Below, one piece after another: positions 1 through 19,218 of a stretch of DNA of 21,151 bases. This stretch comes from a virus. How positions within the stretch are numbered: position 1 is the first letter of the stretch; each line of letters opens with the position of its first letter. The notes below the pieces were generated by a model, which ran no database searches, was not told the origin of the DNA, and worked only from the letters and a program-made list of their open reading frames with translations. The translations under genes and the position numbers were made by a program. The stretch covers positions 1,376-22,526 of the IMG/VR virus record IMGVR_UViG_3300039159_000306; one strand, written 5' to 3'.

Positions 1-162
1 AAAAAGAAACAACGAATCGTTAAATACATTAACTACCCTATTTCTATTTCTAACAGCTACTAAGTTAACATCAAATAAATCGTATTTTAACTTAGTTATT
101 GTTGGAATTAATCTTTTTAGAACGAAGTTTGTTGTTCGGTTGCTTAATATTGCTTGGCTCAT
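1..162 (-). CDS. Partial CDS overlapping the patatin 3' end (N-terminal 54 codons)
   Basis: An open frame starts at ATG (162-160) and stays open for 54 codons to the left window edge, so only the N-terminus is present. It overlaps the last 71 bases of the patatin gene in a different frame. The translation begins MSQAILSNRT and continues with mixed charged and hydrophobic residues, including KYDLFDVNLVAVRNRNR at about 26-42, which looks like real protein rather than a shadow frame. By contrast, the patatin tail in the overlap is low complexity (Asn, Lys and Ser rich), as expected if this frame is the constrained one. I do not recognise the family. An overlap of 71 bases is long for this window, but nearby genes also overlap by tens of bases. 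The function is unknown; the position suggests the next gene of the late operon. Confidence 0.6.
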   Translation of the reverse strand, partial: MSQAILSNRTTNFVLKRLIPTITKLKYDLFDVNLVAVRNRNRVVNVFNDSLFLF

Positions 163-1054
163 TTTGTAGTGTTATAAATTCTAACAATTCATTCTTTTTA
201 TTTTCCCATAAAGTTACACCTTTTTCAATTAAGTAAGGTACTTCTTTAATAGAATCCATTACAACTTGTTTATCCAATTTAATATCACAATTTAGATACC
301 GATTGTTTAACAACGAGGTACAACCATACTTTGTAAATTCAATTGAAGCGTCTAAAATAACATCAACAATTGGAGTTGCGTTATTAGATTTAATCCATTG
401 TAAAGAACCAGCAGTTTCAAGATTTTTAAATTCTTTTTCATAATATCCCGTACCAAATGATAACAAATTAATGTCTTCCAATTTAGCTATATTCTTCTTA
501 ATCAAATGGAAGAGTAAGCACAAACTAGGATTATTTGCATAAACTCCACCGTCAATTAAAGTCTTATTAACTGGATAAAAGTAAGTTGGAGCAGTACTAG
601 TAGCTTTTGCAATAGTTGACAGCCTAACATTCTTATACTTATCATTATCAGACTCATACACAACTGGGACTCCAAGCTTAATGTCATAACTTGTAATTAA
701 GATTGGCTTTAAAACTTCACCTAATCTAACATCACCATAAATTTCATCAATAATATTTAACGCGTTTTCTGGATATTTGGGTAATCTATAACCGTCTAAA
801 GACTTAATTTTATATCCCAAAGACCTTTTGAATATAGTATCACAAAGTTTAACATACATTTCTAAAACATCTTTGCTTGCGTAGTTAAGCTTGGGATGAA
901 CTAAAGCTGTTGCAATGATTCCCCCCGTAGATGTGCCCGATACATAATCAAACTTATCAATAATCTTTGACTCCAATTCTTTTTCAAAATTAGATAAAGC
1001 TGATAAAGTTAATACTCCTCTGATACCACCGCCGTTAATTGCTAATCCTTTCAT
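92..1054 (-). CDS. Patatin-like phospholipase
   Basis: A 320-residue predicted lipid acyl hydrolase of the patatin fold, which cleaves acyl chains from membrane phospholipids with a Ser-Asp dyad. All expected motifs are visible: oxyanion-hole loop GGGIRG at 8-13, nucleophile elbow GTSTG at 40-44 (Ser42), the stretch ATSTAPTYF at 151-159, and DGGVYANNP at 168-176 with the catalytic Asp168. No signal peptide is seen. I chose the ATG at 1054 because it overlaps the upstream stop as TAATG and sits right before the conserved N-terminal strand; an earlier ATG at 1087 would add 11 residues. The C-terminus is low complexity and is overlapped by the next gene. Length and motifs resemble bacterial patatins, including CBASS effectors of the CapV type. 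In a phage it could act in lysis, membrane penetration or host interference; the sequence does not decide. Confidence 0.9.
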   Translation of the reverse strand: MKGLAINGGGIRGVLTLSALSNFEKELESKIIDKFDYVSGTSTGGIIATALVHPKLNYASKDVLEMYVKLCDTIFKRSLGYKIKSLDGYRLPKYPENALNIIDEIYGDVRLGEVLKPILITSYDIKLGVPVVYESDNDKYKNVRLSTIAKATSTAPTYFYPVNKTLIDGGVYANNPSLCLLFHLIKKNIAKLEDINLLSFGTGYYEKEFKNLETAGSLQWIKSNNATPIVDVILDASIEFTKYGCTSLLNNRYLNCDIKLDKQVVMDSIKEVPYLIEKGVTLWENKKNELLEFITLQNEPSNIKQPNNKLRSKKINSNNN

Positions 1055-1410
1055 TATAAATAGGTATAAGAAGCTCGCATTGTCCAACTAAAACTATTAC
1101 TTAAAATACCATTAGGATAAGTTATAGTAGTTTGAGTATTCAAAGCTGATGATTTAACTTCAACGATCCTTTTAATTGACCATTCGGCTTGTGATTCAAC
1201 TGCTCCAATGATTGAGCTACCCACAAAAGTTGTAGTTGTAATTGGAAAAGTTGTACCACTAACTACTTCATCAACTCTTAACAATGATAATTGAAGGGTA
1301 GGTATAATTGGCCCACCTGAAATTACTTGTAAAAGGTTATTGGATATTCCTTCTTTAATGCTTAATGCTTCTAATAGAGTTATTATTCGTTGTCCAGTGT
1401 ATTCGGTCAT
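1054..1410 (-). CDS. Small beta-rich protein of unknown function
   Basis: A 118-residue protein that I do not recognise. The first 30 residues look helical (MTEYTGQRIITLLEALSIKE), followed by strand-like Thr/Ser/Val-rich sequence and a C-terminus of alternating hydrophobic and polar residues (SFSWTMRASYTYL), which suggests a small beta sandwich or barrel. No signal peptide or membrane segment is seen. Its stop overlaps the patatin start as TAATG, so translation of the two is probably coupled. It is the first gene after the hairpin terminator at about 1421-1448, so it opens a new segment with patatin and the partial gene at the left edge. It could be a minor virion protein, but that is a guess from context. 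Confidence 0.7.
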   Translation of the reverse strand: MTEYTGQRIITLLEALSIKEGISNNLLQVISGGPIIPTLQLSLLRVDEVVSGTTFPITTTTFVGSSIIGAVESQAEWSIKRIVEVKSSALNTQTTITYPNGILSNSFSWTMRASYTYL

Positions 1411-1470: not shown

Positions 1471-1492
1471 TATAATAAATTTATTTATTATA
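1471..1492 (-). repeat. AT-only inverted repeat at the Met-rich gene stop codon
   Basis: TATAATAAA (1471-1479) pairs perfectly with TTTATTATA (1484-1492) across a 4-nt spacer. It covers the TAA stop (1490-1488) of the Met-rich gene. Having only A-T pairs it is weak as an RNA hairpin, and such palindromes arise easily in AT-rich DNA, so a function is uncertain. Confidence 0.35.
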
Positions 1493-1799
1493 CCATTGCT
1501 TTTTGCTCCATTCCTTCCATTGGGGTTTCTTCCATCGGGGCTTCTTCCATTGGAGCTTCGCCACCTTGGATACTTGCCAAAAACATAGACACGCCTTCCA
1601 TCAACATATTACAGTCTTGTTTTTCCAAACCTTCAGTAAACATCATTACAACTTGCTCCATTACTTGCTCAATAGAAGCACTAGCTTCATCTTGGGGCAT
1701 ACTCATTGCTGGCTCTGATTCCATTCCACCTTCCATATTTATACCTAAGATATTCATTGGAATAAATACTGATTTAGTTACAGTTGTATTAAAATTCAT
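1488..1799 (-). CDS. Met-rich acidic protein with APMEE tandem repeats
   Basis: A 103-residue protein of no family I recognise. About 17 residues are Met (roughly 16%), and Glu/Asp far outnumber Lys/Arg. The N-terminus (MNFNTTVTKSVFIPMNIL) is strand-like and basic or neutral; residues about 42-77 (ASIEQVMEQVVMMFTEGLEK and onward) could form an amphipathic helix with Met on the hydrophobic face; residues about 81-96 carry tandem pentapeptides of the form E-A/T-P-M-E encoded by 15-bp DNA repeats. There is one Cys. No signal peptide or membrane segment is evident. The ATG follows an A-rich leader (AAAGAAATG). The gene follows the 63 aa gene by 17 bases and is closed by a hairpin terminator, which suggests a defined and perhaps abundant product. 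A small virion or chaperone-like role is possible; the function is unknown. Confidence 0.75.
   Translation of the reverse strand: MNFNTTVTKSVFIPMNILGINMEGGMESEPAMSMPQDEASASIEQVMEQVVMMFTEGLEKQDCNMLMEGVSMFLASIQGGEAPMEEAPMEETPMEGMEQKAMV
1514..1558 (-). repeat. Three tandem 15-bp repeats (in-frame pentapeptide repeat)
   Basis: Copies at 1514-1528, 1529-1543 and 1544-1558 follow CTTCCATYGGRGYTT on the plus strand, with each pair differing at two positions. Period 15 keeps the frame and gives the repeated E-A/T-P-M-E peptide in the Met-rich protein. A degenerate partial copy lies just before 1514. Confidence 0.9.
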
Positions 1800-1816: not shown

Positions 1817-2008
1817 TTAACGATTATTCTTCTTTTGTTTAACTCTAATCATATACATATAGTTTCCAAGTGTTATTAAACTTGGTCTATCTGTTGCAAG
1901 CTTTGCTAACTTAATTAGATTAGCTCGTTCATCTCTTGATATTACAAGTTCTGAACCTTCTAATTTGTATTGTACATTCCCGTTTTCATCAAGTAAGTTT
2001 GCTTTCAT
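1817..2008 (-). CDS. Small hypothetical protein (63 aa)
   Basis: A 63-residue protein starting MKANLLDENGNVQYKLEG. The first 25 residues look like a beta hairpin (DENGNVQYKLEGSELVIS), followed by a helix (RDERANLIKLAKLATDRP) and a strand (LGNYMYMIRV), ending with a basic tail KQKKNNR. I do not recognise a family. Its ATG overlaps the stop of the upstream 333 aa gene as ATGA, which supports it as a real, translationally coupled gene. It may assist its neighbour, but nothing in the sequence states a function. Confidence 0.7.
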   Translation of the reverse strand: MKANLLDENGNVQYKLEGSELVISRDERANLIKLAKLATDRPSLITLGNYMYMIRVKQKKNNR

Positions 2009-3006
2009 ATTATTTTGTTGTTAACTGAAAACTTACAACCTGAATCACAAGTTTTATCGTCTAAGTTCTTAATAGCTAATAAAGTAAGTTTTCCAAGTTC
2101 ATAAAGATTGTTATCGCTTTTATTTTTAATTTGGCTATTAACTAAATCTTCTATTTTCAAAGCTGTTTCTTTATTAAATATAATTTCTCCAATTTCTACT
2201 TCAAACAACTTGTACTTTCTATTATAATTTGTTAACGATTGTGGCACAGCTGGTACACCTTTATCACCCAAATTATTATATTCGCTATGAAGTACACCTT
2301 TTGTAATAATACCACCCGCTTTATAAGTTGGAAACCCAAATCCGTTGTTCAAACTCTTTGCCTGGAGATGTTTTAGATTTAATGCTAAACCTTTGTTCTT
2401 TTCGTAATTATAAGCATTTGTCTTACGCAACAAATCGTTTTGTTTTAGTTGTTTAATTCTATCGTCATCAGTTTTATCAAAATTCGTAAATCCTAAGTTG
2501 CTATCGATCACTCCCCTGAAATTACCTTTTGCTAAAAGAGAACCGGTGTTTATCATTCTTGTTACTTGATTTAAGTTTTTTAAGTGTAATGACATTCCTG
2601 ATTTAAAACTACCATCATTTGCGGTAACTACTTCTCCAGTAAACTCATCTTTGAAATTGTTTTCTAGTTTCGTCCCAGCTTTCCCAGCTACGTTTAAAAC
2701 TGCTGCTGCGATTTGACCTTTTGGGCCTAACATAGCCCCAACAGAATCTGTTATTTTAGTACCAATTTCAACATTCTTATTTCCAGAATCAACTTTTGGT
2801 TTTCCAATTACATTACCTATCATATTACCAACTATCGGAGCCGCCGCACCAGCAATACTTAAAGCTTTGCTAGGTATTGTACCATCAAGATTTAAATCTT
2901 CAATTTTTAAACTAGGTACTTCTTTTATTCCAGTCGGGCTTTTTTTTAGTTTAGAGAATGCTTCCGAAAAGGTTTTACTAGATAACAATTTCATTAAGTC
3001 TTCCAT
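2005..3006 (-). CDS. Candidate virion cargo/ejection protein with conserved C-terminal module
   Basis: A 333-residue protein. Residues about 45-115 are Ala/Gly-rich and helical (SIAGAAAPIVGNMIGNVIG and similar), like segments of phage ejection proteins that insert into or cross membranes. Residues about 185-220 are charged and helical. Residues about 228-290 form a module I recall from many crAss-like and other Bacteroidota phage proteins: a Gly-rich start (KAGGIITKGVLH, 229-240), an Asn-Asn-Leu, DKGVP (248-252), then a Glu-rich strand-helix FEVEIGEIIFNKE (268-280) leading into KIEDL. Two Cys lie near the end (320, 324). The start overlaps the previous stop as TAATG. It lies two genes downstream of the muzzle; in crAss-like phages cargo proteins are encoded just after the muzzle, so packaging in the head and ejection into the host is a reasonable inference, not shown. 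Confidence 0.6.
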   Translation of the reverse strand: MEDLMKLLSSKTFSEAFSKLKKSPTGIKEVPSLKIEDLNLDGTIPSKALSIAGAAAPIVGNMIGNVIGKPKVDSGNKNVEIGTKITDSVGAMLGPKGQIAAAVLNVAGKAGTKLENNFKDEFTGEVVTANDGSFKSGMSLHLKNLNQVTRMINTGSLLAKGNFRGVIDSNLGFTNFDKTDDDRIKQLKQNDLLRKTNAYNYEKNKGLALNLKHLQAKSLNNGFGFPTYKAGGIITKGVLHSEYNNLGDKGVPAVPQSLTNYNRKYKLFEVEIGEIIFNKETALKIEDLVNSQIKNKSDNNLYELGKLTLLAIKNLDDKTCDSGCKFSVNNKII

Positions 3007-3779
3007 TATCCGAATATTTTATCGTTTTCTTCATACATGTTTAACATATCATCAACAGAATATAAAATTGATTTAAATTCTTTGTCTCCCATAAACTTTG
3101 ACTTTTTATCAAGCTTAATAGAAACTGTTCCTAATAATACATAATCATTTTTAGATTTCGTAATAATTATAGGTTTGTCTATTGTACTATCGGTTATTGG
3201 AACTAATAAGGGAAACTTTACAATTTTTGTGATGTTTTCATAAATCACTGTGTTGTACATTGAATATTTAGTATTCTCTAAATCAAACTCAACGTAATCA
3301 AGTTCTTTAAACTTATTTAAAGTCTCATAAAAGGGTGATAATGGCTTAGACTGATGTTGATCAATAAAAGACTTGTTTCTATCGCTAACTCGTTCGTAAC
3401 GTCGTGAGAAGTTTTTAAAACCATAAGAAGTTCCATTATGGAATATATCAATTGTAACATAACATAAGTTGTAAGTGTGTAGTAATTCATCTAATATCTT
3501 TGTTACTTTCAAGACATTAGATAACAACCCTCTACCATTCTTAAAGATAGCATCTTTTGTGAGTTGCTTTAATTCATCCTCATGGAGTTGGTTCTGTTTT
3601 TTAACTTGTAAATCAAATTGAATATTCTTTAACTTTTCTGAATTAGTAAATCTTGTTAATAAAGACTTGCGTACAAGTTCTAAAAATAAAGATACTATTT
3701 TGTTTAGTGAGGTAATTGCTGAAGCTATTACAACTATTAGGACTCCAATAATTTCTTTGTTTTGAATGATTTCTTCCAT
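3006..3779 (-). CDS. Membrane-anchored protein with GAF/PAS-like region
   Basis: A 257-residue protein with one clear hydrophobic segment at about 11-33 (IGVLIVVIASAITS...), then a basic helical linker and a likely coiled coil (about 45-80). The region about 85-240 alternates strands and helices and contains VTIDIFHNGTSYGF at 108-121. The FHNG signature followed by an R-R-Y-E stretch resembles a GAF/PAS-like domain found behind an N-terminal membrane helix in phage proteins. A short acidic C-terminus follows. The N-terminal anchor with a cytosolic-looking remainder would fit a membrane-targeted sensor or a component acting at the host membrane during entry or lysis. It sits one base after the muzzle stop and overlaps the 333 aa gene (TAATG). 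A holin role is possible by position, but the large soluble part is unlike a simple holin. Confidence 0.6.
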   Translation of the reverse strand: MEEIIQNKEIIGVLIVVIASAITSLNKIVSLFLELVRKSLLTRFTNSEKLKNIQFDLQVKKQNQLHEDELKQLTKDAIFKNGRGLLSNVLKVTKILDELLHTYNLCYVTIDIFHNGTSYGFKNFSRRYERVSDRNKSFIDQHQSKPLSPFYETLNKFKELDYVEFDLENTKYSMYNTVIYENITKIVKFPLLVPITDSTIDKPIIITKSKNDYVLLGTVSIKLDKKSKFMGDKEFKSILYSVDDMLNMYEENDKIFG

Positions 3780-3780
3780 A

Positions 3781-6700
3781 TTAAAATGATTGTCTTACGA
3801 ATGAAACTATATTTCTTATAAATAACTCTTGATCAGTATTATAAGTTATTCTTATCTTACAATACTTGTCCCTAATTCTTCTATTGTTTAATCCCCCTCT
3901 TGAATCAGAGCTATTTTTAATACACGTTACATATAGTTTGTCTTCTCTATAAACACAATCAAATGCGAAAGTTGAATTTAAAGGATCTGTGTAATATGGA
4001 ATTGCAGCTTGAGCAACAATATTTCTGGGAAAACTAGTTTGTAAAGATGATTCATTATCATTAGTATACAAAATTGAACTTGGGTAAACATGATTTGATA
4101 CTATATTAAGATTATCAAATATTAATTGAGTAAATAGGTTTATAGATGCAACAAATTCAATTGTAGTATTTAATTGGGTATCGTAAACAAAATTGTATTT
4201 AGGGTTTACATAATGTTCCCAGATATTTCCGGGAGTTAAACCACCAAACGAATAAAAGTCACCCCTAATTGTAAAAGCTTGATTAGGTATAAAAGTTGGC
4301 TCATTCTGCCACAATCCGCCTCTAGCTTCATTATAAACAACATGATAAGATAATAGTTCATTATTAATTACAAATCCAACATCAGTCCTATATTTATTGT
4401 AATAGCTTTTAATATTATAGAACATTTTGGATTCAGTTTTGTTTATTAATGAATCAGTTGCTTTTTTAATATTTGCTTGAATTTTAAAATCTGAAATTAA
4501 ATCAAAAGATGATTCAGATAGTTTCCAAACTTTACCATTTGTTACATCAACTCCATATATATAGTTATCACTTTTAATAATTGAAAATTGATTTGTACTA
4601 CCATAAATAGAACTAATTGTCATTACGTTATTAATTGCTGGAAGAACTCCAACGCTTTCAAAAAATACTTCTCCTGCTGAATCATTTAAACCACCAATTC
4701 TTTGATTAATCGGTAATGCAACTAATCCATTTTCAAAAACAACCAATAATAAACTCTCATTGATTTTATTTAACGATATTATTTGTCCGTATTGAGATGT
4801 ATAATCGCGATAATCAGGTAAATTAAATTGTTGATAGCCATTTGCAAATGAACCGGGAACATGAATATCAGAAAAGTAAACCCTTGTTTTAAAGTTAGAT
4901 TGTAAAAAAGGAAGTCGATAATTAAACCCAGGTGTAATCAAACCACTTTCATAAGAGCCATACCCAGTATTAAAATTAGTAGTTTCTAAGACTCTTGATA
5001 AACGCCAAGGAGATGAACCTAAATAAGTTGATATAGCGGGTGATAAAGAACTTAAATAAGGATAAAAGGATCTAATTGTTTCGGTCACATCTCTAACTTG
5101 TTCATGACGAAATGCAACATTATAGTTGCTATCTGAAGCAAAGCTGATAGTTGGTCCAATGTTAATTTGTTGCCAAATATCGTCGTCTACAACTTTAATA
5201 TCACCGCTGTTATAATACAACCTTCTAAAAACAATAGACACATAATTATCTCCATTATGAGCTTTTAATACTCGTGATGGGTCAAGTATCAAACTCAACA
5301 TAGAACCGTTAGTCTCAGTCACGTTTGCTTGTGACCAATAAGTATTATGAGAGACTGGTTCGTAAGTTAAGAACTCTGGTAAATGACCGGTAATTTGAAT
5401 ACTTGTTGCTAAAGGGCCTTGGTTGTTATACAAAGCTCCATAAGCAAACCATTCATTGTTTGGTTCATTACCAGTAAACTTAGTTAGATTATGTGTAAAA
5501 TTATGGTATCTATCATCTGCAACTTTGCTATTTAAGAATATACCCGCATAATCCAATACAACAGTTGGTAATACAACTGAAAAATCAGTAAGTATATAAC
5601 TTGATACAGATTTAAAAGAAACATAATCGTTATACTTTAAAGGATGCCAAGAATACCTAACTCTATCTTTTATTAAAGCGTTGCCATTTTGAATAGTTGA
5701 AGCAGATTGAAATAAAGCTTGACTTGAGAACCCATTTTGACTAGCATTTGAATTAGCTTCTCTTATGAACTCGCTATTTAAAGCTATTGATTGAGTTGGT
5801 CCGCGTAATACATTTGTAGAACTAACTTGAGTAACAGTTGTGTATAAACCTGTATCATTTGGTAATTGAGAATATTCGTTTTGTTGACTATTACCATACA
5901 AAGAGTTTGTCTTAGAATAAACTTTAAATGATTTATTCTTACCGCTCATCCTATTTGAACTATTAATATTATCAGTTATAAATTCAGGTGAGATAAAAGC
6001 AAAACGAGTAAGAGCTTGATTATTAACATAAGCATTAGACGGTGAAGGATAATTCTGTCCAAAGAACTTAACAAGTTCAACGCTTTTTGAATCAAGGTCG
6101 GGAGTTCTAGCAATTTCTCCACTTGATGAATCTTTTACTCCCCAAGTACCAGCAGATTCTAATGTGAAATTTGGACTAGGAATCCATTTTGAATTACTAT
6201 CATCATACCCTCCGTTATCAGCATTATAATCAACTAAACGTTCTTGATTTTCATTTCCTTCACTAGCTGTTCCAACAATCCTATCGTAATCAATATTTGG
6301 AATCGCCATAGTATTCATTATAATACCACTTCCTAAAGAATCTTTACGACGCAAACAATTACGATATACTTTAAAACCGTTTGTATTGTCTTGAATATAA
6401 CTCGGTAATACCGGAAAAGTAAACTTTGCAGCAACTGTTCCAATTGTTCCAGTTTCAAGAATTGGAGCTAATCTGTATCTATCAGGAAATCTATAATACC
6501 CAATTGAGTTTTCATAATTATTAAAAGCGTCAAACTCATTTCCAATTGTAAACAAGTTAGTTGCTAAGTTATAAGTTGTATCAGATAAAAGCTCATCGCT
6601 TCCCCTCATTGGGAACAAAGGGCTTCGGCTACCGTCTTTCATTATGTATTGAATACAAAACGAATAAGCTTCACCGGGATAATAACCTAGCTTATCATGG

Positions 6701-8103
6701 ACATTTTTAGGATTGTAATATCCACCATCAAAACCATCATTTGTTTGACCATTAGTTAAAGCTGTGTGGATGTCAGCTATTGTTGGATTCTGTCCTACTC
6801 CCCTAACCGCAAGTCTTTCTTGCTCATAACTTACTTGCACTTGAGCAGAATAAGTACGCAAATCATTATAGTTTACAGTATTTTGTTTAATATTTCCAAT
6901 AAACAATCTACCTTGTGCTTCAACTCCTGTACGATATGTATAAACATCAGAATTATTTAAAGACAACGTATCATTTCCAATTGGAGTTGTGTTTTCAAAT
7001 CCAGTATGATTAATTGATAGTTGTGAATTTCCACTTAATAAGTAAGGAGTTTCAACTTTATAACTTGTAACAATTGGATTAGAACCTGAATCACCACTTG
7101 TGTAAGTAAAGTATAATCGTACAGCATAATACGAAAGTGATACGTTTTCAATTGCAATTATATTTGATTTATTTGATTCTTCGTTTACAGAGCCACCAAT
7201 AATAGAAGCTACTGAATCTCCAATATAAACCGGAATATTGAAACTACTAGCTACTACATCAGTTGATGTACCGTCTTGAGTTTCATATTTAATATAGTAT
7301 TTGTAAGTCCCAGTTAACAACTTACCGTTGGGAGCTTGAGATATAAAGTTAATCCATTCTAAGCTTCTACTAGTAAGTATTTGAGAAAGTTGAGTTGTCC
7401 AAGATTCGTTTGTATAAAAATTAGAACTTGTTGTACTAAACCTATTTACAATTTTATATTGAGTTTCATTATTTAGTTTGTTCAGCAATATTGAGAATCC
7501 ACTATTAATAATACGTGGACGATTATAATAATCAGTAATAATTATATTTACTGAATCATCATAACTTGCTTGAACAGCAACAATATGAATAGGATCGGTA
7601 TGACGAAAATTAAAAAAGCTAGAATTAAAATCACCGAACAACGTTCCAGCTGGAGGATTTAAAGGAATATTCAAATCACCTCTATAATTCTTTAGAGGTT
7701 TGTAGTTCATTTCCATTTGACCAACCCTAGAACAAGTAGCAACCGATTCGGGTCCTTGACAGTCAACTAAAGTATAAGTATCGTAATTAGGCGATGGGAA
7801 TGTTCCCAATTCTCCCCTTCCAGTAAATACTCTATTCAATCCTGTTCCAGTAAATTCAGCACTCAATATATAAGCTATTCCGTTAAAGTCTTTAACATCA
7901 ACGGGAAAGTAGTTTGGTTTAATTGTAGTACTAAAAATTGTACCTTTATCATTCTTTAAAATGATTTCATTTCCCGTATGAGATATAAACGTAACGTTTT
8001 GACCTATTGTATAAACATCCAAAGGGGTCATATAAGGGTGAATATCGTTTGATAAACCCCCGTTAAAAATATTGTTTATAACTTGATTTTCGCTGTTTGC
8101 CAT
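3781..8103 (-). CDS. Tail muzzle/nozzle protein (P22 gp10 and T7 gp12-like, crAss type)
   Basis: The largest gene here, 1440 residues. The N-terminus (VINNIFNGGLSNDI at about 8-21, then TPLDVYTIGQNVTF) is typical of tail nozzle proteins of podoviruses, where an FxGG stretch opens the propeller-like tube. The rest is strand-rich, high in Asn, Ser, Tyr and Gly, with few Cys and no signal peptide or membrane helix. Known crAss-like muzzle proteins are of similar great length and form the distal end of the tail tube, closed until DNA ejection. The gene follows small ring-protein genes and precedes the cargo candidate, the usual crAss-like order. Its ATG lies 41 bases inside the preceding 127 aa gene. 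No inserted domain or frameshift is seen over its length. Confidence 0.85.
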   Translation of the reverse strand: MANSENQVINNIFNGGLSNDIHPYMTPLDVYTIGQNVTFISHTGNEIILKNDKGTIFSTTIKPNYFPVDVKDFNGIAYILSAEFTGTGLNRVFTGRGELGTFPSPNYDTYTLVDCQGPESVATCSRVGQMEMNYKPLKNYRGDLNIPLNPPAGTLFGDFNSSFFNFRHTDPIHIVAVQASYDDSVNIIITDYYNRPRIINSGFSILLNKLNNETQYKIVNRFSTTSSNFYTNESWTTQLSQILTSRSLEWINFISQAPNGKLLTGTYKYYIKYETQDGTSTDVVASSFNIPVYIGDSVASIIGGSVNEESNKSNIIAIENVSLSYYAVRLYFTYTSGDSGSNPIVTSYKVETPYLLSGNSQLSINHTGFENTTPIGNDTLSLNNSDVYTYRTGVEAQGRLFIGNIKQNTVNYNDLRTYSAQVQVSYEQERLAVRGVGQNPTIADIHTALTNGQTNDGFDGGYYNPKNVHDKLGYYPGEAYSFCIQYIMKDGSRSPLFPMRGSDELLSDTTYNLATNLFTIGNEFDAFNNYENSIGYYRFPDRYRLAPILETGTIGTVAAKFTFPVLPSYIQDNTNGFKVYRNCLRRKDSLGSGIIMNTMAIPNIDYDRIVGTASEGNENQERLVDYNADNGGYDDSNSKWIPSPNFTLESAGTWGVKDSSSGEIARTPDLDSKSVELVKFFGQNYPSPSNAYVNNQALTRFAFISPEFITDNINSSNRMSGKNKSFKVYSKTNSLYGNSQQNEYSQLPNDTGLYTTVTQVSSTNVLRGPTQSIALNSEFIREANSNASQNGFSSQALFQSASTIQNGNALIKDRVRYSWHPLKYNDYVSFKSVSSYILTDFSVVLPTVVLDYAGIFLNSKVADDRYHNFTHNLTKFTGNEPNNEWFAYGALYNNQGPLATSIQITGHLPEFLTYEPVSHNTYWSQANVTETNGSMLSLILDPSRVLKAHNGDNYVSIVFRRLYYNSGDIKVVDDDIWQQINIGPTISFASDSNYNVAFRHEQVRDVTETIRSFYPYLSSLSPAISTYLGSSPWRLSRVLETTNFNTGYGSYESGLITPGFNYRLPFLQSNFKTRVYFSDIHVPGSFANGYQQFNLPDYRDYTSQYGQIISLNKINESLLLVVFENGLVALPINQRIGGLNDSAGEVFFESVGVLPAINNVMTISSIYGSTNQFSIIKSDNYIYGVDVTNGKVWKLSESSFDLISDFKIQANIKKATDSLINKTESKMFYNIKSYYNKYRTDVGFVINNELLSYHVVYNEARGGLWQNEPTFIPNQAFTIRGDFYSFGGLTPGNIWEHYVNPKYNFVYDTQLNTTIEFVASINLFTQLIFDNLNIVSNHVYPSSILYTNDNESSLQTSFPRNIVAQAAIPYYTDPLNSTFAFDCVYREDKLYVTCIKNSSDSRGGLNNRRIRDKYCKIRITYNTDQELFIRNIVSFVRQSF

Positions 8104-8858: not shown

Positions 8859-9495
8859 AGCTTTTTCTATCAGATGAAAAGTTGATATTTGCAAATTGAT
8901 CCATAAAGTTCTGATTCATTTTACCTTGAACGCGAGCTTGAAGAATCTTTAAGTTCTTATTTTTAGTTGCTAAAGCTATTTGATTGAATGCCAGTTGATT
9001 ACCTTCATAAACTTTGCGAGAAATATCAATGTAAATCCAATAGTATCCAAGAGCTTCAGCTTCAGCTTCAGTAATTAAAGGCAAATCATTTTCATCTTTC
9101 TCATAGCTTTTATAAATAATAGTTACCAAAAGGTTTGGTGCAACAACAATTGAATCACCTTTAGAAACGTATTTTACATAACCGCCTTGTCCATACAAGT
9201 TGCTTTGTTCATTATTAATTGATTGAGTAATCCTATCATAAGTAGGGAAAGTTACTGATTCTATTTGTAAAGCGCAATAAGGAAGTTCAATAATCCCATC
9301 TTTATCAGATGTAAAATCTTGTTGATAAATAGAATGATGTAAATTACCAATTAACCTTAAACAATTTAAAGCAGTATCCAAATAATCATCTTCATTTGGA
9401 CTAGGATAAAAAGCTTTAATAGCCGCAATTCCAGCAAAAATAGAAAGCTTTTTTGTTTTGTTTGAGTTTTCTATATCTAAGTTTTTAAAGCTCAT
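8824..9495 (-). CDS. Tail ring/tubular protein (crAss-like, P22 gp4 or T7 gp11 type)
   Basis: A 223-residue protein of ring type. Residues 20-50 form a helix bundle start (FAGIAAIKAFYPSPNEDDYL), then strands (IIELPYCALQIESVTFP, 68-84), a Tyr/Gly-rich loop (NLYGQGGYVKY, 99-109), and a second strand pair (VAPNLLVTIIYKSYEKDEN, 118-136). The stretch DLPLITEAEAEALGYYWIY (137-155), with a helix rich in Glu and Ala followed by aromatic residues, is characteristic of tail ring/adaptor proteins in crAss-like phages. A basic helix at 175-205 and a Tyr/Ser-rich tail follow. Such proteins stack as dodecameric rings between portal and muzzle. It overlaps the preceding ring gene by one base (TAATG), so equal-level production is likely. 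Which ring it forms cannot be told from sequence alone. Confidence 0.65.
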   Translation of the reverse strand: MSFKNLDIENSNKTKKLSIFAGIAAIKAFYPSPNEDDYLDTALNCLRLIGNLHHSIYQQDFTSDKDGIIELPYCALQIESVTFPTYDRITQSINNEQSNLYGQGGYVKYVSKGDSIVVAPNLLVTIIYKSYEKDENDLPLITEAEAEALGYYWIYIDISRKVYEGNQLAFNQIALATKNKNLKILQARVQGKMNQNFMDQFANINFSSDRKSYGYSSKPIKIN

Positions 9496-10166
9496 TATTC
9501 TTTAATTCCCCCGCTAGCGTTTCGTCCCAAAAATCTATAATACCAACTTGCCCAGTTACTTGTAATGTCTTTTATAATATAATCAACAGCACCGGGTGGA
9601 ACAGGATAAGTAGATGTTTCAGGATTTAAGTTACAACAACTATATTTATTTACATCCATTGGATTCACTAATACTCCCGCAAAACTTATTTTATCAATAA
9701 TTTCTGTTGGGGGATTAAATAAGAATCCATGAGTAATTCCTTCATGAGACCTTAACACTACATAAGGTCGGTTAATTAAACTTTTATTGCGATACTTGTT
9801 GTACATATAATGATTATCGGTATAATAAGCAAAAGGAGTTTGCCTATTTACTGAACCAATATAGCTATTAACAAAAGTATTGGGTAATTCAAAATGCTTA
9901 ACGTTTTTATTTGTATCGGTATCACAACATAAACTGAATTGTTCGCAATCTAAAGGTATACAATTTATTTCTTGGATTATCCCATTTGTCTTTAAGCTAC
10001 CTTGAGTCAGCATATTTGTTATATAACTATTTCGCGATGCTAAAACAATATGGGACAATTGTTCAAGTGAAAAGTTCATTCTTGTAGTTGTAGATAATCC
10101 AGCTTCTAAGTTATTTCTAACCGCACTTGTTATCTTATTTAAACTCCAGGTTCCTTGATCATTCAT
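9495..10166 (-). CDS. Tail ring-type structural protein
   Basis: A 223-residue protein. The N-terminal 55 residues are helical; then comes a beta region with Cys at 69, 74, 80 and 81 (INCIPLDCEQFSLCCD, 67-82), an F-x-L-P-N stretch (92-96), and YIGSVNRQTPFAYYTD at 102-117, which matches a pattern I recall in crAss-like and T4-related neck or ring proteins (paired CC, then a strand-loop ending in an aromatic pair). A second CC lies at 177-178, and the C-terminal YPVPPGAVDYIIKDI (187-201) with W/Y-rich end looks like an oligomer-contact helix. It follows the terminator at about 10195-10229, so it is the first gene of the next transcript segment, and overlaps the next ring gene by one base. The family call is moderate; the exact ring position is unknown. 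Confidence 0.55.
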   Translation of the reverse strand: MNDQGTWSLNKITSAVRNNLEAGLSTTTRMNFSLEQLSHIVLASRNSYITNMLTQGSLKTNGIIQEINCIPLDCEQFSLCCDTDTNKNVKHFELPNTFVNSYIGSVNRQTPFAYYTDNHYMYNKYRNKSLINRPYVVLRSHEGITHGFLFNPPTEIIDKISFAGVLVNPMDVNKYSCCNLNPETSTYPVPPGAVDYIIKDITSNWASWYYRFLGRNASGGIKE

Positions 10167-12919: not shown

Positions 12920-14416
12920 CTAAACGTTCTCAGTAATAATTGTAGCAGCATAAGGGTTAGTTACGCGGCAACCAATCCAACCCAACAAAGTTTGGGTAGA
13001 ATAATCACCAGTGTGGGAAACCAAACCTGATTCACCACCGCTCATCCCACCAATACCAGCGTTACCAGACCTAACAAGTGCACGATTCTTCAAGGTCAAC
13101 AAGTTAACATTGGGAACAGCACCACCTTCGGTTTGATAAAGACCTGTATCGATAAAGATTGCATAACCACGATCTTGGTAATGGTTAGTCAAAGCTTCGT
13201 CAACTACAAAGTTAATTACGTTACCTTCATAGATGTAACTGTTAAGAGTTGCACCTACTGTAATTTCATTAGCCATACGAGCATTCTTAACTTTAGATTT
13301 GGTTACTTTATCTTCAAATGACACGTCATCTTTAGTATAGAACCAAGCACCGTTAGGATTCAAAGCAAACACTTTAGATTCCAAAGCACGGTATTTAGCC
13401 CGGGCAAAACGACGGTTTACAGCACAAGTAATGTGATTACCAGTAGACTGACCACGACGATCACATACTGATTCAATTGCAGAAATAAAGTCATTAGTTG
13501 ACAAGTTATTATCTGAATAGTCCACATAATAAGCTTCTTTTTCATATTGAGCAATCAATCCATCACCAGAGATAATATCTTCACCACGGTTGTTTTGGAT
13601 ATACGACCGGTTGGTAGCTGGGTTCATAGAAGACCGACCAAATACAATTGCATTATTCTTTTGGATTTGGAAATCATCAAACAATTTCTGCTCAATAGAA
13701 TTGAACAAATATACTTTGAAGTCTTTTCCACCCTTCATTGCTTTCTCATAATCAGCTTCTTCCATAAAGTACTGATCTTGAGTTGCCTTCAAATCAGAGC
13801 TATAAGATTGGTCAACCCGGATTTTAGTCAAATAGTTTGTATGGGTTTCAGTTTGATACCAAGACTTAGAACTTCCACGTTCAGAAAATTCTTCGTTAGC
13901 TTTATACAAGAAACGCAAACGGCTATTAGCCCGAGTATACCGTACATCAAGCCTTTCAGCAGGATTGTTTGTCCACAACTTAACAGTAACCAAAAACTCA
14001 TTGTCAGAAATACGCTCTGGTTCAGTTACAGCATAAAGTTGTTGAGTATTTGTCAAAGCAAAAATATCACCTTGAGCAAACATCCGGTCATTAACAAACA
14101 ATTGACCAGTTTCATTAATAGCCAAAGCAGTTGTAAAATCACGACTTACACCAACAGTTGGAATTTGAGAAATATCAAGATTCCACTTGTATTGCCAAGT
14201 CATTACTTCTTGTACTTTAGTCATAGACTTTTCATCTTCAACATAAAGATTACCCATTGCTTCAAAAATAGTAGCAAGGCCCATTTTGTGTTGATTCCTC
14301 ATCCGGTTCAATCCAGGAAGATGTTCAGGATTACGACCCATAAGTTCCATAAAAGAACCAACAGAATACGTTTGATTACTGAACCGAGCAATTGTATTTT
14401 TTTGTACTTGTAACAT
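12920..14416 (-). CDS. Major capsid protein (HK97 fold, crAss-like)
   Basis: A 498-residue protein whose length and motifs match crAss-like major capsid proteins, which form the icosahedral shell. Visible features: an N-terminal helix region with FMELMGRNPEHLPGLNRM (22-39); central IISGDGLIAQYEKEAYYVDY, like the G-D-G-I/L-I-x-Q-x-E stretch of the family; a helix then strand near ITCAVNRRFARAKYRAL; and a C-terminus with GLVSHTGDYSTQTLLGWIG followed by CRVTNPYAATI, the usual family ending. GC content and CGT/CGG Arg use are higher than in neighbouring small genes, in line with high expression. The stop is TAG. The leader is A/T-rich (AAGAA before ATG) with no Shine-Dalgarno site. It follows the acidic scaffold candidate by 27 bases and is closed by a hairpin terminator. 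Confidence 0.9.
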   Translation of the reverse strand: MLQVQKNTIARFSNQTYSVGSFMELMGRNPEHLPGLNRMRNQHKMGLATIFEAMGNLYVEDEKSMTKVQEVMTWQYKWNLDISQIPTVGVSRDFTTALAINETGQLFVNDRMFAQGDIFALTNTQQLYAVTEPERISDNEFLVTVKLWTNNPAERLDVRYTRANSRLRFLYKANEEFSERGSSKSWYQTETHTNYLTKIRVDQSYSSDLKATQDQYFMEEADYEKAMKGGKDFKVYLFNSIEQKLFDDFQIQKNNAIVFGRSSMNPATNRSYIQNNRGEDIISGDGLIAQYEKEAYYVDYSDNNLSTNDFISAIESVCDRRGQSTGNHITCAVNRRFARAKYRALESKVFALNPNGAWFYTKDDVSFEDKVTKSKVKNARMANEITVGATLNSYIYEGNVINFVVDEALTNHYQDRGYAIFIDTGLYQTEGGAVPNVNLLTLKNRALVRSGNAGIGGMSGGESGLVSHTGDYSTQTLLGWIGCRVTNPYAATIITENV

Positions 14417-16632: not shown

Positions 16633-17005
16633 ACATCAATTTCTTATAAGCCGTTAAACGATTTTGTTTTTCTTCAAATGTATACAAATCCAATTTGTTG
16701 CAAGTAAATACTTTTGATTCGCTCACATATAGTATTATGTTCTTATCAGTCCTAAAGGGAATCTTAATTTCATCAACCTTTTTAACCTTTTTAATTCCAC
16801 ATCTTTCTTTCAAACTTTTCAACCTCAATTTAGTAACTCTTATTTCTTCTGTATTATCACTATTCACTAATATATCATTATATTCTTTTAACTTAATTTC
16901 ATTTTTGCTATCTCGTTGAACTTTTTCTTGATTTCTCCTAGTTTGGTAACGGGGAGATAACGAGTTCCATTTTTCACCATCAAACTTGTATTTCTTTTCT
17001 CTCAT
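16619..17005 (-). CDS. Small basic protein after portal
   Basis: A 128-residue Lys/Arg-rich protein that I do not recognise. It starts MREKKYKFDGEKWNSLSPRY and has a long basic helix region (VTKLRLKSLKERCGIKKVKKV, 58-78) followed by strands (IKIPFRTDKNIILYVSES) and a helical C-terminus. The net charge is clearly positive, so nucleic-acid or capsid-interior contact is conceivable. Its ATG overlaps the portal stop as TAATG, and its own end overlaps the Ig-like gene by 14 bases, which supports a real coupled gene. The function is unknown. Confidence 0.65.
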   Translation of the reverse strand: MREKKYKFDGEKWNSLSPRYQTRRNQEKVQRDSKNEIKLKEYNDILVNSDNTEEIRVTKLRLKSLKERCGIKKVKKVDEIKIPFRTDKNIILYVSESKVFTCNKLDLYTFEEKQNRLTAYKKLMYDNI

Positions 17006-19218
17006 TATCGATTGAAATTTATTTTATCATTATACGGAGACGCATCAATTGTTTGGGCTATTTCAGCTTCAAGTTTCTTAACTTCTATAGACTGTTCAGC
17101 TTGACCCTTTTCTTTCAAGTAACTAAGTTTCTCATCTTCAAATCTTTGATTAATCATCATTTGTTCTCTCCTAAGCTTTAAGTCTTCAGTCAAGTTCTTT
17201 TCTTGAAGTCCCCCAAGAGATTGGATAATTTGTTCTTGTTCTTTTAACTTTGCGTTAAGCTGTTCCAATTGTTTTTGAGCTTCTTGAAGTTGATTGATTG
17301 CTTGCTCTTCTTGTTTATCAAAAGCTTGAGTTAAAGTAAGCGAACGTTTTGTAATTGAGTTGCTCATTAAAACTTTATAAGCAGAAGGTAAATCCAAAGA
17401 TGATTGTTGTAATGCAACTTTTACCAATTCATCACCCATTAACAACTTCTTATTATCATTTTGAGAATCAGAAACAAATATATTAAAATCACAAAGACTC
17501 ATTTTTTCTGATTCAAATGTAAATATCTTATGATTAATAGTATCAGGGATTAAGTAACTAAAAACAGTATCTTCTTTATAGCTTATCCTAGCCATATTAA
17601 TAACAGAAGCTAGAGTACGCTTTATAAGTTCACCATTCAAAAAATATAAATCTTTATTGTTAATTTCCCCTTGTTGGATAGCCATAGTAGAAACAGTCTT
17701 ACCATCACGCTCTTCCATATTCCCCATTGATTGACGAGTTAAGCCAACAGTATTAAGAGCTTGAGTTTCAAGTATTTCTAAATACGCCATAAACGATTGA
17801 AGCATTTGACCTTCTAAGTTTGAAGGATAACTGCCATAATTATTAAATGGAGTTGCCTCATTACCTTCTTGACTCAATGATATTACAAGTGGCATACCAT
17901 TTTTCATATAACCAGCAGTCTTGTTCAACCTTTCAACCATTGAATCACCTAAATCTTGATTAAGATGTTCAGCAACAATATATGTTCCACCGGGACGAGC
18001 CGAATGAAAAAGATTGTTTAATTGAAAATGGGTAATATCATACAAATCTTGAATAGATTTTGTATCAAATATTAAAGATGACTTTTGTGGATTGTTACGA
18101 CCTTTGTACAAACAACCATCATAAGTCAAAGTTGTTGCATAAGGATTTTGTAAAGTACGAGGGGGATATTTAACGCGACCATAACCAAAATAAATACCGT
18201 CTCCAATTTCAATTTTATAACCTTCATAAAGGTTTTGAATAAACCTATTTTCAGACTTTACAGGATTTGGTTCAGTTAGTTTTAAATCATCAATTGGAGC
18301 TTTCATCTTATCGGTAGCAATCCATTCTACATGGAGAACCGATATTAAATTATCCCGTTTTCTTTCTAAACTCATATTATAAACAGTATCCGTATAATTA
18401 TTACCCTCATAAAGATCATGAGCAAGTACTTCATTATAACTAGATATACTATCTCCAATATTATGCTTTCTCAGCAACTCCAATTCTTTTTCTTCAATTA
18501 AAGAACCGTATTGCAATATAATATCACTTACTGAAAGAAACTCCCGATAAACAACGCGATGTTGTTCATTCAACCAAAGCTTATCACCGTGATAGTCTTT
18601 ATAAATATGCTCGGGATTTATCAACTTAGTAATAGGATCTTTATTGAGTTCCCTAATATAAGTACGTCTATATTGACCCCCAACAACACATAAATCTTGT
18701 AAATTTAAATTAAAGAGTTGTTTAAGGTTATGAGATTGAATATAGTATTCCATATAATCTTGAGCCGTTATTTCAAAATCAGCTTGCCAATTTCCCGAAT
18801 ACTTTTTACCAAGCTCTTTTGTAAGTTTCTCTTTCCACTCTTTTGAGTTTTCACCTTCAATTGCTTCTTTCACTTCATCCAACATCATCAAGCGTTTTTG
18901 CTCAAGCTTTAAATTAAGACCTTCCTTGTTTTGACAAGTAATTAAATAATCAAGCTTATTGTTCAATTGATTGTTTACCAAAGATTTAACAATTCTTCCC
19001 ATTAAAGGAATAAAAGGAATCTTCATTGGATGGGCAATTCCATAATTATCAACCAAGTGTTGATACTCCCGATCGTTTCTACGACCATTATAAATATTGT
19101 AACAAAGTGTTTCAAATTGTTTTGAATCGTTATTTACCAATTCTGCAATATGATGTTTGCAAGAATCAATTAAATAATTTTCATCCAATTTGTTTTTTAC
19201 GTTATCGTCGGGTCTCAT
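17005..19218 (-). CDS. Portal protein
   Basis: A 737-residue protein placed right after TerL, as portals usually are. It forms the dodecameric ring at one capsid vertex through which DNA enters and leaves. Visible features: an N-terminal helical part with IPFIPLMGRIVKSLVNNQLN (68-87) typical of the portal start; a DFEITAQDYMEYYIQ helix and LCVVGGQYRR (about 147-185); INPEHIYKDYHGDKLWLNEQ, the clip/stem-region N-P-x-x-I-Y-x-D pattern with HRVVYREFLS after it; and SMGNMEERDGKTVSTMAIQ in the crown-side helix. The last 120 residues are a Gln/Glu/Lys-rich coiled coil (QEEQAINQLQEAQKQLEQLN and on), the barrel of such portals. Length fits crAss-like portals. ATG overlaps the TerL stop (ATGA). I see no frameshift. 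Confidence 0.85.
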   Translation of the reverse strand: MRPDDNVKNKLDENYLIDSCKHHIAELVNNDSKQFETLCYNIYNGRRNDREYQHLVDNYGIAHPMKIPFIPLMGRIVKSLVNNQLNNKLDYLITCQNKEGLNLKLEQKRLMMLDEVKEAIEGENSKEWKEKLTKELGKKYSGNWQADFEITAQDYMEYYIQSHNLKQLFNLNLQDLCVVGGQYRRTYIRELNKDPITKLINPEHIYKDYHGDKLWLNEQHRVVYREFLSVSDIILQYGSLIEEKELELLRKHNIGDSISSYNEVLAHDLYEGNNYTDTVYNMSLERKRDNLISVLHVEWIATDKMKAPIDDLKLTEPNPVKSENRFIQNLYEGYKIEIGDGIYFGYGRVKYPPRTLQNPYATTLTYDGCLYKGRNNPQKSSLIFDTKSIQDLYDITHFQLNNLFHSARPGGTYIVAEHLNQDLGDSMVERLNKTAGYMKNGMPLVISLSQEGNEATPFNNYGSYPSNLEGQMLQSFMAYLEILETQALNTVGLTRQSMGNMEERDGKTVSTMAIQQGEINNKDLYFLNGELIKRTLASVINMARISYKEDTVFSYLIPDTINHKIFTFESEKMSLCDFNIFVSDSQNDNKKLLMGDELVKVALQQSSLDLPSAYKVLMSNSITKRSLTLTQAFDKQEEQAINQLQEAQKQLEQLNAKLKEQEQIIQSLGGLQEKNLTEDLKLRREQMMINQRFEDEKLSYLKEKGQAEQSIEVKKLEAEIAQTIDASPYNDKINFNR

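Follow-up and report, generated by a model that had tools for sequence, protein, structure and literature searches.

A patatin-like phospholipase gene joined to a lysin-family gene in distant crAss-like phages, with a probable role in lysis

In two related genomes of crAss-like phages, a 22,526-base virus record and the single relative of it that we found (contig G001, 105,641 bases, or 105.6 kb), a gene for a patatin-like phospholipase stands beside a gene of a lysin family, and the small membrane genes that usually accompany this lysin in crAss phages were not found. This joining of a patatin to a lysin-family gene is new for crAss-like phages: no earlier report of a patatin in a crAss phage appeared among the papers listed from the open-access literature, and the words 'patatin' and 'phospholipase' are absent from the main texts of Yutin 2021 (PMC7886860) and of the zeta-crAss paper (PMC12386605). 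The placement before a probable lysin suggests that the enzyme helps to burst the host rather than to enter it or to fight its defences. We consider it probable that the patatin is a late lysis-cassette phospholipase that works together with the lysin and may stand in for spanins or a holin.

The stretch of DNA analysed here, which we call the window, comprises 21,151 nucleotides and corresponds to bases 1376–22526 of the record. The record is a distant crAss-like phage, as a sequence-only reading of the window had proposed, judging from its gene order, from portal and TerL genes that match PHROG models, from tblastn of the portal against crAss-named phages (19.3–22.2% identity among the matches listed, 40 of 49 records) and from a CrAss_Ring_2 match just short of its cut-off; the best portal match among those listed is an unclassified faecal phage (24.7% identity). 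We assigned the names 'MCP' and 'muzzle' by position, following the gene order of crAss phages. The features of the window are as follows.

1–162, minus strand: 5′ part of the lysin-like gene; the whole gene (G000:C1:914-1537, 207 aa) leaves the window
92–1054, minus strand: patatin-like phospholipase, 320 aa, dyad Ser42/Asp168, assigned by PF01734, phrog_25573, a predicted model and structures
551–553, minus strand: codon of the catalytic Asp168 (DGG), read from the sequence; D168 column invariant in 38 rows
929–931, minus strand: codon of the nucleophile Ser42 (GTSTG), read from the sequence; S42 column invariant in 38 rows
1054–1410, minus strand: 118-aa gene, function unassigned; its stop overlaps the patatin start (TAATG)
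1488–1799, minus strand: 103-aa gene, Met/Glu-rich; G001 homologue 28% identical (E 3e-7)
1817–2008, minus strand: 63-aa gene; G001 homologue 53% identical over 55 aa (E 1e-15)
2005–3006, minus strand: 333-aa gene; its last third resembles a separate 119-aa G001 gene (49% over 94 aa, E 4e-24)
3006–3779, minus strand: 257-aa protein with an N-terminal hydrophobic segment (Kyte-Doolittle), directly after the muzzle-position gene
3781–8103, minus strand: muzzle-position protein, 1440 aa; 40% identical over 1496 columns to a 1453-aa protein of G001
9495–10166, minus strand: tail ring protein 2-like (PF25702 CrAss_Ring_2, 25.6 bits against a cut-off of 27)
12920–14416, minus strand: MCP-position protein, 498 aa; 52% identical to L004:10001-11497 (G001)
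17005–19218, minus strand: portal protein (phrog_6547, 3.4e-46; tblastn to annotated crAss-phage portals)
19215–21083, minus strand: TerL (phrog_6681, 7.6e-43, profile positions 177–747 of 758)

The TerL frame is open to the window end, its 5′ end probably being cut by the contig. The 257-aa protein, a possible membrane partner, gave no phage tblastn match and no BLASTP match in G001, each at E 0.01.

The patatin ORF runs on the minus strand from an ATG at 1054 to a stop that ends at 92; over the same interval the plus strand holds no open frame, and its translation is full of stops. The profile search that the sequence-only reading had proposed gave 72 bits for PF01734 (E 9.6e-20, Pfam), where the cut-off is 27.7, and phrog_25573 matched with 2.2e-38. 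All three catalytic elements named in that reading, GGGIRG (residues 8–13), GTSTG and DGG, are present, and S42 and D168 do not vary across a 38-row patatin alignment, so that the active site, judged from sequence, is intact. Its further statement that TAATG couples the gene to its upstream neighbour also proved right, the patatin start sharing these letters with the stop of the 118-aa gene. A Kyte-Doolittle scan found no hydrophobic segment in the window patatin and the model has a strand at residues 2–6; it is therefore likely that the protein has no signal peptide, as had been noted. Strand and position agree with the description of a phage late operon, although the late timing itself is presumed. 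The AlphaFold model (mean pLDDT 91.1) and Pfam revealed no second domain besides the patatin. Among solved structures the closest to the model is the bacterial lipase 9kh6 (Z 36.0), followed by plant patatin-17 (Z 35.6, 2.3 Å, 287 residues aligned), AbCapV (Z 33.3–35.1), CapE (Z 32.8) and iPLA2-beta (Z 32.0), the alignments to the lipase, patatin-17 and AbCapV spanning 287–293 residues. The proposed structural comparison with CapV thus found a close match, but patatin-17 matches as well, and Z values of this kind cannot decide between CapV and patatin for the modelled window protein.

Downstream of the patatin, and overlapping it by 71 bases, lies the 207-aa lysin-like ORF, most of which falls in the 1375 bases beyond the window edge. 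A short run of N, an assembly gap at about G000:C1:1358-1369, interrupts it just left of the window; both sides of the run match the G001 lysin in one frame (53% identical). The gene matches phrog_3000 (1.5e-26) and phrog_33083 'endolysin' (5.8e-8). It had no Pfam match above cut-off, NCBIfam and PDB sequence searches named no family, and Foldseek by itself gave no significant match. With VIA-align, which re-ranks the top 1000 chains of Foldseek, the model of the G001 lysin (pLDDT 96.0) retrieved L,D-transpeptidase/L,D-carboxypeptidase-fold entries, including Pgp2, Csd6, Ldt enzymes and DpaA, in rows 1–38 of 47 (Z 9.3–5.9), headed by Pgp2 6xj6 (Z 9.3, 3.4 Å, 130 residues); the first unrelated row beneath these entries had a Z of 3.0. 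The Z values are middling for the YkuD fold and belong to the G001 copy only. In a 38-row alignment of the lysin family H148, S164, G166 and C167 are invariant, C167 of the G001 copy being C168 in the protein of our own record, and the combination of His with S-x-G-C is what we take to be the motif of the YkuD / L,D-transpeptidase family. The YkuD reading draws on a single structural aligner and one motif and, because none of the Pfam, NCBIfam and PDB sequence searches produced a match, we treat the neighbour as a YkuD-like candidate and do not place it in that family. Lysin family and predicted fold together make it a probable lysin with putative peptidoglycan-cutting activity.

The patatin of contig G001 is 32–37% identical to that of the window and has the same catalytic motifs. 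There the patatin is followed by a 126-aa gene that has two hydrophobic segments and then by the lysin, all three overlapping, and this lysin is the only lysin-family match in the contig. The 126-aa gene is a holin candidate by Kyte-Doolittle, a crude scan that also flags a segment inside the G001 patatin; our own record has no such candidate between patatin and lysin. Behind the muzzle-position gene both genomes carry matching genes in a conserved order: homologues of the 333-aa gene (its last third), of the 63-aa gene and of the 103-aa gene. The 118-aa gene had no BLASTP match in G001 at E 0.01 and is 35% identical (MAFFT) to a 155-aa G001 gene at the matching place. In our own record patatin and lysin come directly after these shared genes, whereas G001 has several genes in between, including one of 1089 aa that matches tail-fibre families and one of 964 aa whose GDSL-like region scores below its cut-off. 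Because G001 genes split the patatin from the post-muzzle block, it is with the lysin that the patatin stays in the two genomes, and not with the post-muzzle genes. The sequence-only reading had placed the patatin in a tail and virion gene cluster, which holds in the window but not in G001, and had asked whether related genomes carry it at this position: G001 has the gene beside the lysin, although not at the same post-muzzle position. As a related contig has a patatin gene, the gene is not absent from all related phages, the case that the reading had linked to a stray insertion.

Two further observations concern G001. The 964-aa gene (L006:11724-14618), three genes upstream of the patatin, has a GDSL lipase-like region (29.1 bits, short of the cut-off of 32.9) and is a second possible esterase near it. 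Upstream of the TerL-like gene lies an exonuclease-like gene, both judged by eye.

Scans of viral contigs with the single patatin, TerL and muzzle-position proteins returned no relative of this lineage, the scan with the MCP-position gene returned one contig, G001, and searching with two-row alignments, one each for patatin, lysin and MCP, brought no third member to light; the scan patterns are narrow and do not establish that the lineage is rare. Among 19 patatin loci with flanks of about 8 kb or less, a lysin-family ORF occurred in that of G001 only, and none of 80 lysin loci held a patatin ORF at E 1e-8. Part of the G001 genome may be missing, and our own record has only 22.5 kb.

The gene order of usual crAss phages is different: there a lysin of the same family precedes two small membrane genes and lies upstream of TerL. 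The patatin phages instead have their lysin next to the patatin, behind the structural genes, and searches did not recover the two small genes. Relatives of the lysin were confirmed in at least 573 of 600 candidate stretches of IMG/VR and occur in 24 of 50,697 GenBank phage records. The lysins of five Crassvirales records are 40.7–45.7% identical to the G001 lysin, and two overlapping small membrane genes lie within 300 bases after the lysin in 5/5 annotated Crassvirales records inspected, a count that covers these five records, with listed hits such as H55 and H64 outside it. The pair is followed by TerL directly in three records, by TerL further on in one and by the record end in one; in cr8_1 a 59-aa gene separates it from the lysin. 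One of the small membrane genes weakly matches an Rz-like spanin (0.0022). We assembled 11 crAss-like loci with the pair, the five annotated records of the BLAST list and six IMG/VR loci; as the latter were chosen after their small hydrophobic neighbour was known, 5/5 is the unbiased count. Across the lysin family, 52 of 79 loci had a small gene with a hydrophobic segment next to the lysin, and small hydrophobic genes accounted for 53 of 130 adjacent genes versus 118 of 666 other same-strand genes (Fisher p 4e-8, a value that ignores kinship since the 79 loci are not independent).

Profiles of both small membrane genes had no match in G001 or in our own record, and the two records likewise gave none for the families Amidase_2, phage lysozyme, M15 and Rz-like spanin; GH19 had no match either, but it found nothing in its control and so carries no weight. 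Divergent spanins escape sequence profiles, which makes the absence of spanins weak. A lipobox pattern occurs in one G001 ORF, whose strand is not that of the late genes, and a near-identical pattern marks only 4 of the 11 second small genes of the crAss controls. The lysin family is not always found within lysis cassettes, because in phage ACA1 a relative lies among tail genes and at L114:1695-5540 the lysin domain forms the C-terminus of a 1281-aa ORF. At another locus (L097) the lysin is flanked by a PHROG endolysin (1.2e-64) and, across from it, by a small gene that has two hydrophobic segments, and L041 carries the lysin-family gene in two overlapping tandem copies (854–1546 and 1488–2096).

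The scan with the two-row patatin alignment also brought up 18 other patatin loci. A second phage patatin group comprises 17 of them (L019-L035, 23–29% identity); in the seven loci viewed the patatin overlaps the next gene (264–659 aa) by four bases, and in six of these seven the overlapping gene contains an NFISPVTG stretch. Where weak hits name the preceding genes, these are terminase-like or tail-like, and the gene abutting the patatin is likely structural, judged from weak hits and position. The uncultured phage LR745206.1 (L016; 635 kb) has genes of both kinds, a patatin and one of the lysin family, with about 55 kb between them.

Among bacterial patatin relatives (the best 80 of at least 511 confirmed loci), M15 peptidases are the commonest nearby family, with 24 of 105 near genes versus at most 1 of 74 far genes; near genes were taken on the same strand only and far genes on either strand, the far number is a bound from 25 of 70 far families listed, and, the pairing coming mostly from Chryseobacterium and Flavobacterium, the 24 are not independent events. 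One far gene is S13, another type of D-Ala-D-Ala carboxypeptidase. The pairing of M15 and patatin echoes that of patatin and lysin in the phages. On flavobacterial chromosomes (L129, L133, L142, L145, L156, L160 and others) the patatin gene comes after an M15 (VanY-like) gene, as it likewise comes after an M15 peptidase gene on a Chryseobacterium plasmid (L208). By eye, the order at L126 and L164 is M15-like gene, lipoprotein-like gene, 106-aa gene and patatin; a GH19-like lysozyme ORF lies just upstream of the patatin in L154 (Ignavibacteria), a peptidoglycan-binding-like ORF lies just downstream of it in L131 (Bacteroidia), and no phage structural genes were recognised in the ten bacterial loci displayed.

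These data allow us to propose a role for the patatin in lysis. We suggest that it would be translated late, together with the tail genes, and would build up in the cytosol because no signal peptide is seen. It would then cleave acyl chains off membrane phospholipids, acting either on the inner membrane from inside or, once a holin opens the inner membrane, from the periplasm or at the outer membrane; CapV is likewise cytosolic and attacks the membrane from inside. The overlapping downstream gene would yield a YkuD-fold cysteine peptidase that loosens peptidoglycan, and patatin and lysin may jointly disrupt membrane and wall, doing the holin or spanin job of other crAss phages. The adjacency of patatin and lysin in both known genomes, the lysin-family match, the predicted fold of the neighbour and the failure of profiles to find the usual crAss small membrane genes in the patatin phages support this proposal, as do the small hydrophobic genes often next to the lysin elsewhere, the M15 peptidases near bacterial patatins and the cassette suggested for phage WO; the limitation of the pair to two genomes, the lysin relatives outside lysis cassettes, the lack of a holin candidate between patatin and lysin in our own record, and the second phage patatin group, where the likely structural neighbour favours a virion role, speak against it. 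In a bolder form, which we regard as fairly doubtful, a crAss-like lineage swapped the spanin pair for a phospholipase, so that lysin and patatin dissolve wall and membrane lipids enzymatically.

The sequence-only reading had left lysis, entry and competition with host effectors side by side as options, and lysis has gained the most support because the patatin abuts a lysin-family gene, lying mostly outside the window, in both genomes. The main rival is an entry enzyme carried in the virion: the patatin would be packed with the post-muzzle cargo and would cut host membrane lipids at genome delivery. It does share its strand with the muzzle-position gene and is the sixth gene behind it; in crAss001, gp45 and gp46, which follow the muzzle gp44, were detected as virion cargo by mass spectrometry, as described in PMC10172136; the second phage group has its patatins next to likely structural genes (7 loci viewed of 17); and a 2011 paper suggests entry or exit for the WO patatin (PMC3173496). 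Yet in G001 fibre-like and other genes part the patatin from the post-muzzle block while the lysin remains beside it, and neither Pfam nor the model revealed a further domain on the enzyme, so that we judge entry unlikely. Even less probable, in our estimate, is that the patatin serves late in infection as an accessory lipase, remodelling or recycling host lipid, or that the gene is of no current importance and stands beside the lysin by chance; the occurrence in two genomes only and the long tree branches (1.59 and 2.67) would fit this, but the catalytic residues are kept in both genomes despite 32–37% identity, and so is an overlap with the lysin or the preceding gene.

A defence origin was also considered, in which a CBASS-like phospholipase was taken up to kill cells co-infected by a rival, or an inactive or decoy protein competes with CapV. 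CapV, the cGAMP-activated CBASS phospholipase, shares the patatin fold, family and catalytic dyad with the window protein, and to this extent the link drawn by the sequence-only reading stands; PADLOC phospholipase effector models match as well (2.5e-52), and AbCapV is among the nearest structures. However, the window patatin reaches 153.4 bits with NCBIfam CBASS_lipase, short of the cut-off of 200, plant patatin-17 fits its model as well as CapV does, and Pfam recognised no CD-NTase among the 20 window proteins, one further neighbour in our own record and nine in G001. Near the bacterial relatives no CD-NTase occurs among the 25 Pfam families listed of 78, and a crude motif scan flagged 2 of 80 loci (4 of the 80 having dropped out at gene calling), neither convincing and one the patatin itself, a result too weak either way. 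In a 70-row patatin tree, which is unrooted and shown with a midpoint root, the two phage patatins pair (99/89) and attach between an 11-row group holding six CapV rows and the remaining rows, the window patatin not being among the CapV rows; with either phage row dropped, the other stays in about the same place, outside the CapV rows and apart from the two phage WO patatins. The tree thus makes a sister relation to the CapV group possible, and descent from within that group is not supported. Three results led us to abandon the capture of a CapV as the main explanation: the lack of a CD-NTase among the proteins scanned, the score short of the cut-off, and the tree position outside the CapV rows. 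As the active site is intact, which argues against an inactive decoy, and the late-gene position suits lysis better, we regard a defence role as very improbable.

The late lysis role has parallels in known systems. The mycobacteriophage enzyme LysB is not a patatin but an esterase that cleaves mycolyl-arabinogalactan in the envelope of mycobacteria; it resembles the window protein in being a lipid-cutting enzyme within a lysis cassette, and the two are compared by role alone. LysB is a tested lysis enzyme acting in a third step, as spanins do, in the account of PMC5707550. A patatin-based lytic cassette has already been proposed for phage WO of Wolbachia in PMC9203015: a patatin of similar size stands there beside a small membrane gene and next to tail genes. 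The same source describes WO as having an ankyrin protein and no canonical endolysin, whereas in the crAss-like patatin phages a lysin-family gene is adjacent and Pfam recognised no ankyrin among the 20 window proteins, the one own neighbour and the nine of G001; the WO-type set of patatin, holin-like gene and ankyrin is thus not that of our record or of G001. The window patatin is 30.2–31.8% identical to those of six phage WO records, and in the tree the two patatins from WO cluster with rows of Pseudoalteromonas and Methylovorus, not with the crAss-like pair.

If the patatin does act in lysis, the WO proposal would gain an independent example, here from a phage with a lysin-family gene. If the bolder exchange of spanins for a phospholipase were true, the patatin and M15 genes paired on flavobacterial chromosomes would represent a lysis module that is shared and can be exchanged. 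Spanins were unrecognisable in 91 (about 13%) of the 677 phages of one survey, which leaves open how the outer membrane is breached there (PMC6139136), and a phospholipase in the lysis cassette would be a concrete and testable answer for such phages.
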